This document shows, piece by piece, positions 300 through 58,600 of a stretch of DNA of 64,000 nucleotides. The stretch's first letter is position 1. Each line of letters begins with the position of its first letter. The position numbers and the translations under genes are program-made. Origin of the DNA: Tribonema minus (lineage: Eukaryota; Sar; Xanthophyceae; Tribonematales; Tribonemataceae); assembly GCA_017506865.1 (NCBI GenBank), contig JAFCMP010000412.1, forward strand, positions 744,001-808,000, given 5' to 3'. The notes under the pieces were generated by a model that had not been told where the DNA came from, made no database searches, and worked only from the letters and a program-made list of their open reading frames with translations.

Positions 300-3200
300 T
301 TGTGCCATGTCCCAGCAGCTTCAGAGACCACCCACTTCCGCACGCGCTGCACGCGGTCCGTGTCTGTCAGCAGCCGCAGACTGCTTTCGGTTGCTTGGCG
401 CCTGCTTCAAGTTAACTGCAGCTCTTCTCAGCAGATCCCAAAACCACACACGCGCCGCTCACGCCTCGTCCTTGCTGCCGCGGTGACTCTCCGCGCAGCG
501 TTCTTCGACGCCATGGGCATAGCGCCGGGGATACCGTCGGTGCCGCGGCACTACGACGACATCCACATCGTCTTCAGCACGGACTGCAGCGACTACCAGA
601 ACTGGCAGTCGCTGCTCTTCTTCTACAGCGCGGCGCGCGCAGGGCAGAAGGGGCCCGTCACGCGCCTGGCGAGCGGCTGCTCGGAGGCGCAGGTGACGCT
701 CCAAAGTGCTGGTGGTGATGCTCAGAAGATGAACTAGGATTAGGGTTAGGGTTAGAGGGGCAAAAGGGGCCCGTCACGCGCCTGGCGAGCAGCTGCTCGG
801 AGGCGCAGGTGACGCTCCAAAGTGCTGGTGGTGATGCTCAGCTGTGTTAGGGTTAAAGTTCGGGGTTAGGGTTATAGGGTTAAAAGGTGCGCGTCGCGCG
901 CCTGGCCAGCGGCTGCTTGGAAGCGCAGGTGACGCTCTGGTGGTGCTGCTGCGCTCAGAAGCTTGGGTGGTGGCGCTGCGTCGCGCGTCTGGGGAGTGAA
1001 CAGCCTCCGAGGCCGCAGGTGGTGGTCAGGTGGCACGCAGCAGCAGCGCTCAGAAGTGCGGGGGATGCTCAGACGGATGCTCAGACGTATACCTGGCGAG
1101 CGGATGCCTTACACGCGCAGGCGATGGTCAGGTGGCACTGGCGGCGCTCAGAAATGTAGGTGATGCTCAGAGACGCGTGCCTGGCGAGCAGGTGCGCCGA
1201 AGCGCAGGGATGCCCAGCAGTGAGCATGGCGAGCAGATGCCTCAGAGGCACTAGTGATGGTCAGGTGGCAGTGGCGGCGCTCAGAAGTGCACGCGATGCT
1301 TAGAAGCGGGCGTGGCGAGGGCATGCGCAGAAGCGCGGACAGCACGTGCAGGTACCAGTGCTCGTACTCAGGGGCAGCGGTATGTAGGTTGCCAGTTGCA
1401 CCAGCGTGCTCTTTACCTCGCCGACCAAAATGCGAGCCAGTCAGGCACGCCTCAAATGCCCATCGTTCACGCGAGAACTTTCCTGAGGCACCTGCGCGCG
1501 CCAGGTATGTTGTCGCGACTGCCGCCAGCCCCCCCCCCCCCAGCCAGGGTGGGTCGCTTGCTGGAAGGGGGGTACCAGAGCATGTCAGCGCTCTGCTGCA
1601 GATGCATTCAGCGTCGCTCTGCAGAAATGGGGGAAGTTCAACCCTGACTGCTATTCCCCCCCCGACACGCACAGTTCGCTCATTGCTCCGTGCCCCTTGC
1701 GCTGCCCCCCCCCCCTTGCACACATGCCACGCAGACGCCCACGCGCTCATGCCGCCACGCCACCGCATCCACTTCGTCCCCAGTTTCTCTTCCCAGCCCA
1801 CCGTTAACATCTCACAAACCTCGCTTCCAAAACCATGCCTCTCTCAAAACCCCTCTCTCGCCCTTCCCCCCCCCCCCCCTCAGATGGCCGAGCTGCGCGA
1901 CGTCCACGCGCTCATGCCGCCGCGCCACTGCGTCCACTTCACGCCCGACTTCTCTCCTCAGCTCACAAAGCACCGCCGCCCCCATGCCCCTTCGCTCACA
2001 CACTCACGCCCGACAACATGCCTTTCTTGACAAACTTCCCTCCCCCCCCCAACGTCACGTCTCTGGTGCTTCCGCCCCCCTCAGATGGCCGAGCTCCGCG
2101 ACGTCCACGCGCTCATGCCGCAACGCCACCGCGTCCACTTCACGCCCGACTTCTCCCTCGACGCGCGCACGGGGCTCCGCTACCCGTACTACAACAAGCC
2201 GCGCGCGCTGCGCCACTGGCTCGCGCACGCGGCGCCGCCCGTCGCCGAGGCCGTCGTCGCGCTGCTCGACCCCGACATGGCGATGCTGCGGCCGCTGCGG
2301 CCGTACGTGGACGACGACCCGGAGACGTTTCCGCGGCGGCGCGGCGGCCCCGGCCAGCCCCCCGTGCGCGGCGTGGAGCCGTGGATCACCGAGGGGCACC
2401 CCGCGGGGCAGGTGTGTAATGTAACCCTGACTCTTACCCCGATCCTAACCCTCATTTGGTGAGCCTAAACTTTAGCTGGACCCTAGTTCGGACCGCGGCG
2501 CGGAGCCGTTGATCACCCCGCGGGGCCCTCCGCCTGTGTGAGTGCTGCCACCTCTCTCTCCCTTCTGAACCTGTGCCGCGCTCCCCCACCCCCCGGACGC
2601 ATCCACTCCTTCGCAAGGAGACGGATCATCAAACTCTCTCTCTACTTTGCTCCCCCCCCCCCCCCCCCCCCCCCCCCCCCCCCCCGACCTCAACATTACG
2701 ATTATGTACTTCCAAGGCTGATCCACGCCCTTCGCAAGCGCAAGGAGATACATCAACAAAGTCCCTCTCTACTTCGCTGAACCCCCCCCTCACACACGCA
2801 CACACACACCCCGCCTCGCCCCCTGCAGCTCTACGGCCATGGCGGCGTTGCCGTTATTTGCCCACGCAGAACACATGAACTTCCTTATCTTTTGGTGCAC
2901 ACACTTATGCAGTGCCTCTTCACCCCGTTCCCCCCCGGCCACCTCCCCCCCCCCAGCTCTGCGCGCTCGGCGGCGCGTGGGCCAACTGGTCCGACCTGGC
3001 CGCCATCGAAACACATCAACCCCCTCCCTATAATTTTTTCTGACCCCCTGCCCACCCCACCTCACCCACCCTCCCGCAGCTCTACGCCCTTGGCGGCGCG
3101 TGGGCCAAGTGGCCCGACCTTGCCACCATCGTCGGCAGCACCACATCTCCCGCACTCTCCGTGCCGCTCGACCAAGCCGCCAAGCACTACCCCGTGGGGC

Positions 3201-55624: not shown

Positions 55625-58600
55625 TCAAAGGTGTTGGGGCGCGGGGCCGCCGACCACTTGCGCCACCGTCAAAACGCCCGACTCCTGCTGCGCCGCAGCG
55701 CCTTCGAGTTCCACGCTGTTGCCATCGCTCTCATCGGCCGTTGCAGCAGCGGCGGCGTCGGCTGATTGCGAGCCAGACACTGCCGCCGCCGGCACGGCTG
55801 CGTGCGCAGCCGCTGCTGCAGTGGCAGCAGGAGCGGCAGCAGCAGCGGCAGTGGCGCCTTTCTCGGCGGCCGCGCTTGTAGTGATGCTCACATGCCCTGC
55901 TGCTGCTGCTGCGTACCATGCCTGAACCTCGCCCACCATTGCTGCCTTCTTTGCACCGAAGGGAGGTCCGCCTGTGGTGACCACCGCCCCCTCAATAGGG
56001 GGCTTGGCCGCAGCAGTGCTCGGCGTGGCAGCGAGCGGAGGCAGAGGTGTCGTGGCGGTTACGGCGGTTTCACTTTTGCTTGTGAGCGCGCGCGTTTTGG
56101 TGATGTTGGCGCTGTACTTATTGATGGAGTCGCCGAAAGCCTTGCGCTCGGCGTCCGAGTTGAGGCCCCAGTTGAGCGAGCCCTTGTTGATGAGGAACCA
56201 GTTGCTGCAGTTCATGCAGGGGCGTTGGCGGGGGGGGAGGGGGCCGGGGGGGGGGGGGCATGATGAGCGGTATGCCTGGTGCACTTGTATTGCTAGTGCA
56301 ATTGCATGAGGCCATGTGTGTTCATGCACAGCCGCTGCTTCAGAATGGCCGGGGCGAGGGGGAGGAGGGGGGCGGGAATGGCAGCGAGTGTGAGCTCGTG
56401 ACTGGTGATGCCTGGCGTAGTGATGCTCAGTGGACAACTTGCCTTCGCGCACGCGGTGAAGGAGTGGATGACGTGGTCACTGCTGACTGGTGTCGAGGCC
56501 GCAGTTGAACGTGTCGCCCTTGTTGATGTAGATACAGTCACTGCAGCGCGAAGAGCGGCTGTTGGCGCTCTAGAGCAGCTGCCAGGTGCATGCGCACATC
56601 TGCGCGGTACCTCGCAGTAAGTGCGTGCATTACTTACATGAAGTTATGTGCCCTGCCTGATCCAAGCAGTGACTTGCCATTTGAGCCTTTGGCCCAAGCA
56701 CAGCATCAAGATTGGTGAGTAAGCATGGCATGTCGGATTCTGCACCTCCTGGGCTGGCTTGGCACCTCATGCAACCGGCAACCTGTCCAGCACACGTCAG
56801 CATCCTACAGCAGGTTTGCCCAGTGCATCATGCTGCGCGCATGCGCGGTCACGACTGCCAACTTGAAGGCGCTGCACGGCGCTGGTCCTGCCAAAGCTGA
56901 GCGCCAGTGTTTGCCCAGGGGACATGAGCTCTCTAGCTGCGCGCATGTGTGCACATAACGCCTGCAAATTTGCAATTGCCTGCCACACGGCATATACATT
57001 AACCCCCCCCCCCCCCCGTGATGCTCTCACTGGTTCAATGCGCGCAAACCTGACGAGACACCTTTGACGTTGCTACATGAAGTTGTCAAGTACGGTGACG
57101 CACTCACAAGTGCTCCACGCGCATAAACTTGGTGCAACGTGCGCGAAAACCTCATGAGACTAATTTGAAGTCGATACTCCAAGCTGTCAAGTACGGTGAC
57201 GCACTCACAACTGCTCCACGCGCGTGAACTTGGTGACGACGGCGGCGAACGCATCCTTGATCTGCCACACAGAAAGTTTCAACTTCCGCCGTGTGCTGAG
57301 CTCTCACTGGCTCAACGCACGCAAACCTGACGACATGCACTTGAAGTCGATACTTCAAGCTGTCAAAGGGCGGTGACACTCACAACTGCTCCACGCGCGT
57401 GAACTTGTTGACGACGGCGTAGAATGCGTCCTTGATCCACTGCGGCTTGCTGTTGGACTGCCACGTCGTGGAGCTCGTCTCGGCGACGCCCAGGGGCTTG
57501 TTGCCGCTGAGCGCTGCCATCCTGTTGTAGCCGGGCGTGAAGACATCCGTGAAGCTCTTCCAGCTCATGTGGTAGGAGTCCGTGCCGGCGCGGTTGTAGC
57601 TGTCAGGACAGCGAGCGCGTAGCGAGCGCGTAGCAAGGAGGTGCGGTCAACAGAATTACGCGAGTAGGGCACACGTGTTCGGGGGGGGGGGGGGAGCCAT
57701 CCCCTTTTGCAGCCGGCGCGGTTGTAACTGTCAAGAGCGAGCGCGCGGCGAGGGGGTCAACTGGTATACCTTCAATTTGAAGCGGCTGGTGCGCGCGTGC
57801 ACACAGGCCGTCGCCTTTCTGCAGCCTGCCTCTGAAAAATAGCGACAGAGCTTTTAGCACTTGTGTGAAGCAGCTCATCTGATGCTGAAGCTGCAGCACG
57901 GAGGACATGCTGAATCAACATGCTCCTGTCTCTGCTACCAGCAAGAGAGTACGCATGCGCGCCGGTGTTTGCGCCCTTGACCTCGACAGTCACTTTTGTA
58001 CCAGCCGCAAACACGCGCCCACACCGCTGCAGTTGCGCGGCAAGCGTGAGCGGCAAGCTAGGTTGAAAGCGGCTTCCTCTGAAGCGCGCAGTGCTCCTGG
58101 CCTGCCCCCAGACGTGTACCCGTGCATGAGCGCTGCTGTGAAGGAGTGCTCAGGGTTAAGGTCAGGGTTAGGCGCGCTCTGTGCAAACTTTGTAAGGGGC
58201 AACAAGGGAGTTTCTGACTTGTGTGGCATGGGTTCGTGTTGTCGTTGTCTGCAGTGGTAAAGAGCAAGCACGCAGCGGAGATTGTACACACCCTGTTGCG
58301 GAACCACAAGCAGCCCGGTCTTTGGCTTGCTGAATGCACGCGCAGGTACGTTGACTTAAGCTGAGCCTAGGTAGCACTCGCTTGCAGGTGAGCTTACAGG
58401 TGCGCCGCAAAAACATGCAAGCCGCAGGCAAAAGAGCTGCATACCTTGCATGGTTCACGGGCTTTCTGCACCTCAAGCAGCAGAAGAGAGGTACACAATG
58501 TGACGTGTGTTGCACTACACGTGTCATACAGTCACGGGGGCTCTACGCTGCGTGTTACATGCTGAGGCAGGCGGCGGCAGCTGAGGTCATGGGCAGTGGA

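Follow-up and report, generated by a model that had tools for sequence, protein, structure and literature searches.

Decaying copies of splice junctions in introns of Tribonema minus and their likely origin in recurrent local duplication

Described routes to new and longer introns

Intron length is usually ascribed to transposons and random insertions. In the introns of a 64-kb stretch of DNA from Tribonema minus (Xanthophyceae, yellow-green alga), referred to here as the window, segments spanning an exon edge and its splice site recur as decaying copies. The window lies on contig C412 of an assembly of 158 Mb in 554 contigs. In the closest described case, the potato RdRp gene, a tandem duplication across an acceptor boundary doubled the splice signals together with an exon fragment, and the result, in this one gene, was a new intron and a retained exon copy confirmed by RNA-seq (PMC4974935). 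The T. minus copies resemble this event in holding a contiguous intron part, splice site and exon part (25 of 30 copied junctions in the window, 24 of 40 elsewhere), but the pattern recurs over many genes and the exon copy is usually absorbed into a longer intron. A mini-exon annotated in the gene GST-D (NCBI model P0114) would be a potato-like outcome if it is real.

The AGGT model (PMC3443670) likewise builds on tandem duplication of gene-internal DNA with splice-site sequences, which is reported to give rise to new introns. It turns exon into intron, whereas in T. minus it is introns already present that appear to lengthen, and the similarity it predicts is seen in 0 of 87 introns. Internal gene duplication (Gao and Lynch 2009) is presented as a source of intron creation in two papers that cite it (PMC3443670 and PMC4974935), and the likeness lies in frequent small duplications inside genes. 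Introners (PMC9860276) also have a large-scale effect on intron structure in diverse eukaryotes, but they are transposable families that create introns, while the T. minus arrays are largely private to their junction; the main text of PMC9860276 makes no mention of Tribonema, Xanthophyceae or stramenopile. Rogers and Bendich 2025 likewise describe direct repeats at intron/exon borders, which are 4-30 bp long (mean 11.4), lie near splice sites and are read as insertion scars (PMC11782384); the T. minus repeats differ in being tens to more than 100 bp long, in including exon and splice site, and in forming multi-copy, age-graded arrays. Searches of open-licence PMC papers brought to light no account of genome-scale intron growth by junction duplication; the potato case is a single event of similar geometry.

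The reading preferred here, given a probability of about 0.7, is recurrent local tandem duplication across junctions, in which the exon-proximal site is kept, the displaced copy decays and introns grow from their ends. T. minus introns would undergo a high rate of short local tandem duplication, with units of roughly 60-400 bp, and a unit spanning an exon/intron junction would set a second exon edge and splice site beside the first. The site next to the intact exon (the upstream-most donor or downstream-most acceptor) would stay in use and leave the protein unchanged, while the displaced copy and its exon fragment would become intron and decay neutrally; the next duplication would start again at the conserved exon edge and shift older copies inward, so that the intron would grow from its ends. 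Tandem duplication is presumed to be the DNA event, and the copies are presumed neutral at birth; the outermost splice sites are presumably those used in the T. minus strain, judging from annotated models and from translated transcripts of a close relative or strain.

Copies of splice junctions and their decay

The window gene set comprises nine genes with 30 introns and 60 junctions: a glycosyltransferase gene, GST-A to GST-E, a coiled-coil gene, a CCDC47-like gene and a GH26-like gene. The gene models are backed by two NCBI T. minus proteins, P0112 (CCDC47-like gene) and P0113 (one of the GSTs), each identical (100%) to the joined exon model over the full query, the CCDC47-like query being without the last two exons, which were taken over from P0112. 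They are also backed by EukProt transcript proteins of a close relative or strain, P0001, which matches the glycosyltransferase model at 98% over exons 2-5, and P0117. The GST paralogues have a four-exon structure in common.

Each junction was represented by 60 bp of exon and 40 bp of intron and aligned to its own intron on the same strand, and it was counted as positive if its match outscored 40 dinucleotide shuffles and, in addition, the top alignment to equally long intron pieces taken from unrelated genes of the window. Thirty of the 60 window junctions were positive, against 2/60 when the intron was reverse-complemented, and in 25 of the 30 the matched stretch reaches across the junction, with 10 or more exon bases and 6 or more intron bases. 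This same-orientation, own-intron excess bears out the count of more than 20 repeated exon edges made in the sequence-only reading of the window, which had also proposed a comparison with shuffled sequence and other introns. Rows of length 30 and identity 1.0 in the copy listing, being self-overlaps of query and target, were discarded along with the raw totals of 112 copies and 60 junctions. A single common threshold again gave 30/60 junctions (donors 12/30, acceptors 18/30; reverse complement 1/60), as well as 75/264 intron-interior tiles (reverse complement 9), 10/158 intergenic tiles (reverse complement 0) and 1/28 exon-interior windows (reverse complement 0); the intron tiles are not independent, because many belong to the same arrays.

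About 248 kb was examined outside the window, with splice sites there inferred from a simple script. For replication, profile searches supplied twelve HSP70 and CCT genes from ten further contigs, picked for long exon chains; 62 exon pairs were tried, one had no solution and four scored below 4, which left 57 introns, pairs with a profile gap above 25 having been left out and CCTd having given no usable pair. Copies were found at 40/114 junctions, with 3/114 in the reverse-complement control, and the match spans the junction in 24 of the 40; CCTc and CCTe had shown partial copies in the profile table before selection, and leaving both out gives 28/94 instead. A paralogue of the glycosyltransferase on contig C51 was positive at 8/10 junctions (reverse complement 1/10), here by mononucleotide shuffles and with no other-intron control. 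Pooled over the window, the HSP70/CCT genes and this paralogue, 78/184 junctions are positive and 6/184 in the reverse-complement controls. A PF00171 profile search gave 14 matches, which entered no count.

The copies are less widespread than had been supposed from the letters of the window, where they were placed in all multi-exon genes and on nearly every junction: besides the proportions above, the own-intron junction test found none in the coiled-coil gene (0/4) or the first introns of the five GSTs (0/10), nor, in the HSP70/CCT sample, in HSPc (0/10), HSPd (0/10) or CCTg (0/2). Wherever a junction is positive, its own intron gives a better match than the introns of unrelated genes do, so the copies are not one dispersed family, as had been claimed in setting a single transposon aside; the introner trait of one family dispersed over many unrelated intron sites is thus absent. 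It had further been held that acceptor copies lie only upstream of their exon and donor copies only downstream. Any search confined to the intron builds this rule in, and the junction test agrees with it automatically; four independent matches in the CCT profile table do bear on it and agree: three partial exon matches (two at C51, one at C135) have the profile start in common and lie upstream, and a fourth, at C5, shares the profile end and lies downstream. One overlapping pair at C279 (808720/809719) is ambiguous.

Collapsed or expanded repeats can mimic tandem copies, but an assembly or haplotype-collapse artefact is given next to no credence: the copies show graded decay, local repeats ranging from 60 to 98% identical, they are present on many contigs, and the profile matches show the same arrangement. 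Local repeats are overwhelmingly direct, with 131 direct against 3 inverted outside the window (15 stretches of 10 kb, two holding the glycosyltransferase paralogue and two adjoining the window) and, at a more sensitive setting over the window and outside stretches together (214 kb; less than 1.5 kb apart, at least 35 bases), 281 against 9.

The 30 window introns and 57 HSP70/CCT introns form a combined set of 87 introns and 174 junctions, in which 102 copies containing 15 or more exon bases are spread over 51 junctions, 25 of them with two or more. In these 25 multi-copy arrays the nearest copy is more similar to the exon than the farthest in 20, less similar in 4 and tied in 1 (p=0.0015). 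The step between copies has a median of about 147 bp (middle half 119-188, 5th-95th percentile about 85-340), which replaces the earlier unit range of about 50-210 bp; small steps are undetectable by the copy search and the median, whose nucleosome-like value is suggestive only, is not to be over-read. Of 36 testable pairs of copies, 21 show repetition of the intervening spacer too, above the 95th percentile of shuffles, as head-to-tail duplication predicts, and 14 do so above all 100. Introns with copies have a median length of 1008 bp (n=38) and those without 502 bp (n=49; p=2e-6), although a longer intron also has more room for a match at a fixed score. Intron DNA lying between a junction and its farthest recognised copy makes up 24% of the total in the 87 introns. 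The age gradient, the longer introns and the largely gene-private copies together support the earlier proposal that existing introns grow repeatedly.

Privacy was examined on 13 GST copies with hand-set coordinates. Ten are closest to their own gene's real junction and one (A_c3) to another copy in its own gene, while two, the acceptor copy B_c1 and the donor copy E_c1, are closest to a paralogue; the view that each array is private to its junction is therefore largely upheld. When translated, the GST-A copy at 8976-9068 is 93.5% identical to P0117, the transcript protein of the relative, against 80.6% to the T. minus model P0118; because of this closeness to P0117 the copy seems, if P0117 is the orthologue, to predate some T. 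minus replacements.

Introns recently born by tandem duplication of AGGT segments, or from introner transposons, would carry such copies as birth scars, and this route to introns is a reported one. The account is very improbable here. Within an intron the donor region does not resemble the acceptor region, 0/87 introns reaching a score of 20 (mean 8.6, against 8.3 between different introns), a test that would miss old, decayed births; the copies join an exon tail to a donor, or an acceptor to an exon head, which is not the AGGT-duplication arrangement, and the own-intron excess over unrelated genes also speaks against it. AGGT intron birth was accordingly rejected, and the link to that process drawn in the sequence-only reading is unsupported.

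Copies mismatch their exon at rates of 0.119, 0.120 and 0.178 for codon positions 1, 2 and 3 (0.098, 0.096 and 0.164 in the nearest copies; 0.142, 0.146 and 0.193 in farther ones), and 44/50 indels in the copies are not multiples of three. Since positions 1 and 2 mismatch equally and most indels break the frame, the copies decay as non-coding DNA, and a coding or cassette function was rejected on the same figures. On these figures it is also improbable that selection retains the copies, whether as cassette exons or as splice sites of a decoy or alternative kind, an idea that draws on the splice signals. Over the 87 introns, 80/87 junction-spanning copies still have their GT or AG, against 129/159 for these dinucleotides in exon-side sequence (p=0.025). 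A first comparison (42/45 against 92/126), taken as a sign of selection, shrank to these values with exon-side controls and is confined to acceptors: donor GT shows no excess retention (39/44 against 71/83), while acceptor AG is kept in 41/43 copies against 58/76 exon-side AGs, which plain neutrality does not predict. The acceptor retention is weak.

A splice-site model trained on the window's own real junctions, and so favouring real sites, places 30/44 donor and 34/43 acceptor copies above the 10th percentile of real sites, and 26/44 donor and 12/43 acceptor copies score at least as high as their own real site, although overall the copies score below real sites (p=0.0008 and 0.0003). There is no sign of fast purging of decoy splice sites. 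As for use in transcripts, P0114 (GST-D, 26495-30571) takes one donor copy as a mini-exon and P0118 (GST-A, 7458-11227) holds intron-derived segments, but P0117, the relative's transcript protein for GST-A, shows no copy-derived exons or such segments; the copy- or intron-derived peptide segments of the two models are probably annotation errors or alternative exons.

Individual arrays in the window

The glycosyltransferase gene (plus strand) holds copies in introns 1 to 4. The donor array of intron 1 (648-1287; real junction 692/693) has copies at 758-864, 884-961, 1092-1153 and 1194-1287, whose exon-part identity falls with distance (0.96, 0.87, 0.82, 0.72), and the acceptor array of the same intron (1696-2159) has copies at 1696-1789 and 1871-1959 upstream of the real junction 2084/2085. 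Intron 2 contains a copy of the exon 2 tail at 2494-2533 (exon bases only, 82%) and acceptor copies (2798-3131) at 2798-2847 and 2922-3008, with the real junction at 3079/3080. The acceptor copies of intron 3 (3957-4498), at 3957-4082 and 4141-4288 ahead of junction 4396/4397, follow a 210-bp step in which the spacer is repeated too, head to tail. Intron 4 has donor copies (4654-5265) at 4760-4882, 5055-5137 and 5182-5265 after junction 4689/4690, and an acceptor copy (5566-5794) at 5566-5669 before junction 5737/5738.

Among the GST genes, GST-A (minus strand) has donor copies of intron 3 (8185-8685) at 8450-8551, 8337-8411, 8252-8292 and 8185-8226 beyond the real donor 8642/8641, and acceptor copies of intron 2 (8826-9450) at 8975-9091, 9156-9315 and 9355-9450 upstream of the real acceptor 8887/8886. 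GST-B (plus strand) has intron 2 acceptor copies (15396-15811) at 15396-15445 and 15534-15641 (junction 15749/15750), an intron 3 donor copy (15966-16174) at 16122-16174 (junction 15991/15992) and an intron 3 acceptor copy at 16870-16924 (junction 17038/17039). GST-C (plus strand) has an intron 3 acceptor copy (24352-24614) at 24352-24433 (junction 24591/24592) and a tandem duplication of its stop codon and 3' flank (24779-25015; 24779-24899 against 24900-25015), which lies at an exon edge with no splice junction. GST-D (plus strand) has an intron 2 acceptor copy (29045-29322) at 29045-29119 (junction 29260/29261), an intron 3 donor copy (29461-29683) at 29625-29683, which is the mini-exon (KLAVRAELAITVIPK) of P0114, and an intron 3 acceptor copy at 30074-30140 (junction 30342/30343). 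GST-E (minus strand) has intron 3 acceptor and donor copies at 33110-33167 (real acceptor 32767/32766) and 33873-33932 (real donor 34044/34043), and intron 2 acceptor copies (34422-35154) at 34422-34497 and 35105-35154 (real acceptor 34289/34288). GST-B and GST-E with their flanks (13083-17983 and 31788-37015) form an inverted segmental duplication with pieces about 77-89% identical. P0115, a EukProt GST transcript protein of the relative, joins exon 1 directly to exon 3, as if exon 2 were skipped.

The CCDC47-like gene (plus strand) has an acceptor copy of intron 1 (44718-44848) at 44718-44776 (junction 44839/44840), and intron-tail copies in intron 2 (45254-45541) that reach the acceptor 45537/45538 with nearly no exon part. 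The donor copies of intron 4 (46453-46849; junction 46520/46521) lie at 46630-46742 and 46769-46849, the farther copy being the more similar, and its acceptor array (47442-48239) has seven copies (47442-48138) before junction 48174/48175; intron 5 has a donor copy (48285-48633) at 48509-48633 (junction 48351/48352). In intron 5, a stretch of about 500 bp (49061-49569) for the most part matches its own reverse complement (75%, 529 aligned bases) and is possibly a foldback or an element like a miniature inverted-repeat transposable element; no other inverted repeat in the window has arms closer than 500 bp. Intron 6 holds a 22-bp minisatellite of about 13 copies (51373-51663), whose repeat family touches no junction. 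The GH26-like gene (minus strand) has an acceptor copy in its third intron, as modelled here, at 56492-56567 (real acceptor 56205/56204), donor copies (57047-57437) at 57148-57262 and 57047-57134 (real donor 57384/57383) and an acceptor copy (57584-57757) at 57712-57757 (real acceptor 57600/57599).

Other features of the window include two inverted copies (88% identical) of a dispersed element of roughly 106 bp, at 32788-32890 and 51762-51867, long poly-C tracts ahead of several acceptors, and short TTAGGG/CCCTAA-like runs in introns and intergenic DNA, identified mostly by eye, at about 730-880, 3415-3430, 7945-7960, 10100-10125, 12295-12325 and 34929-34981. An ankyrin-repeat protein occupies one open frame on the minus strand (62035-62928), and tRNA and Rfam scans of the window gave no matches.

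Placement of the duplications and consequences for introns

A splicing- or transcription-coupled mechanism could instead duplicate DNA specifically at splice junctions, for example stalled or R-loop-rich ones, making splice sites duplication hot spots among whose many near-identical sites the spliceosome would have adapted to choose the outermost. This is judged rather unlikely, and several results that favour it, together with the acceptor retention and the greater room of longer introns given above, weigh against the preferred reading. The 87 introns hold 70 repeat families, and the best pair covers a junction in 33 of them, against 12.7 expected by random placement (standard deviation 3.0, maximum 26 in 20,000 runs); this divides into 19 against 4.8 expected in the window and 14 against 7.9 in the other genes. 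Families that touch no junction occur at 0.42 per kb of intron (30 in 70.7 kb) and at 0.13 per kb of intergenic DNA (2 in 15.6 kb, a small sample). Coding starts and stops in the window mostly have no copies, 1/15 edges being clearly duplicated (the GST-C stop) and two more weakly, again a small sample of gene ends; with few intergenic families and few copied starts and stops, duplication may be non-uniform. Spacer repetition is also absent from 15/36 pairs, where neutral decay of both intron parts may hide it.

A pair anchored in a conserved exon would be expected to remain detectable for roughly double the time of an intron-intron pair, and for this reason part of the junction excess is a matter of detection, although this longer detection life may not explain the whole of it. 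Outside the window the excess is near what such longer recognisability could give. Under the criterion used, 30 of the 70 families are clear of any junction, at least two of these (glycosyltransferase introns 1 and 2) beginning within a few bases of one, and one clear array crosses a stop codon, in GST-C; given these families and this array, most of the signal needs no special junction process. The paralogous glycosyltransferase gene tests negative at its stop but strongly positive at its putative start (45, the best shuffle reaching 13), this start being the first in-frame ATG and possibly an internal exon. An age gradient is expected without targeting too. Targeting to junctions remains a candidate because junction coverage exceeds random placement. 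Repeats near and far from predicted exons occupy 0.158 and 0.117 of non-exon bases (150 kb), a comparison that is uninformative because the codon-usage exon predictor missed 17 annotated window exons.

Under recurrent local tandem duplication, the arrays suggest a direct record of stepwise intron lengthening from an intron's own ends, in which every step can be assigned to a particular junction. Nature has, in the decaying copies, set up experiments on how splice sites are chosen: many copies still score as sites, in an authentic exon context, yet annotated models mostly use the outermost. The copies also raise the question of how the cell splices correctly amid decoys of its exon edges. Gene prediction, too, seems to be misled by the arrays, since P0114 and P0118, both NCBI models of GST genes, hold copy- or intron-derived segments. 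The arrays may occasionally yield new exons or introns, as in potato.

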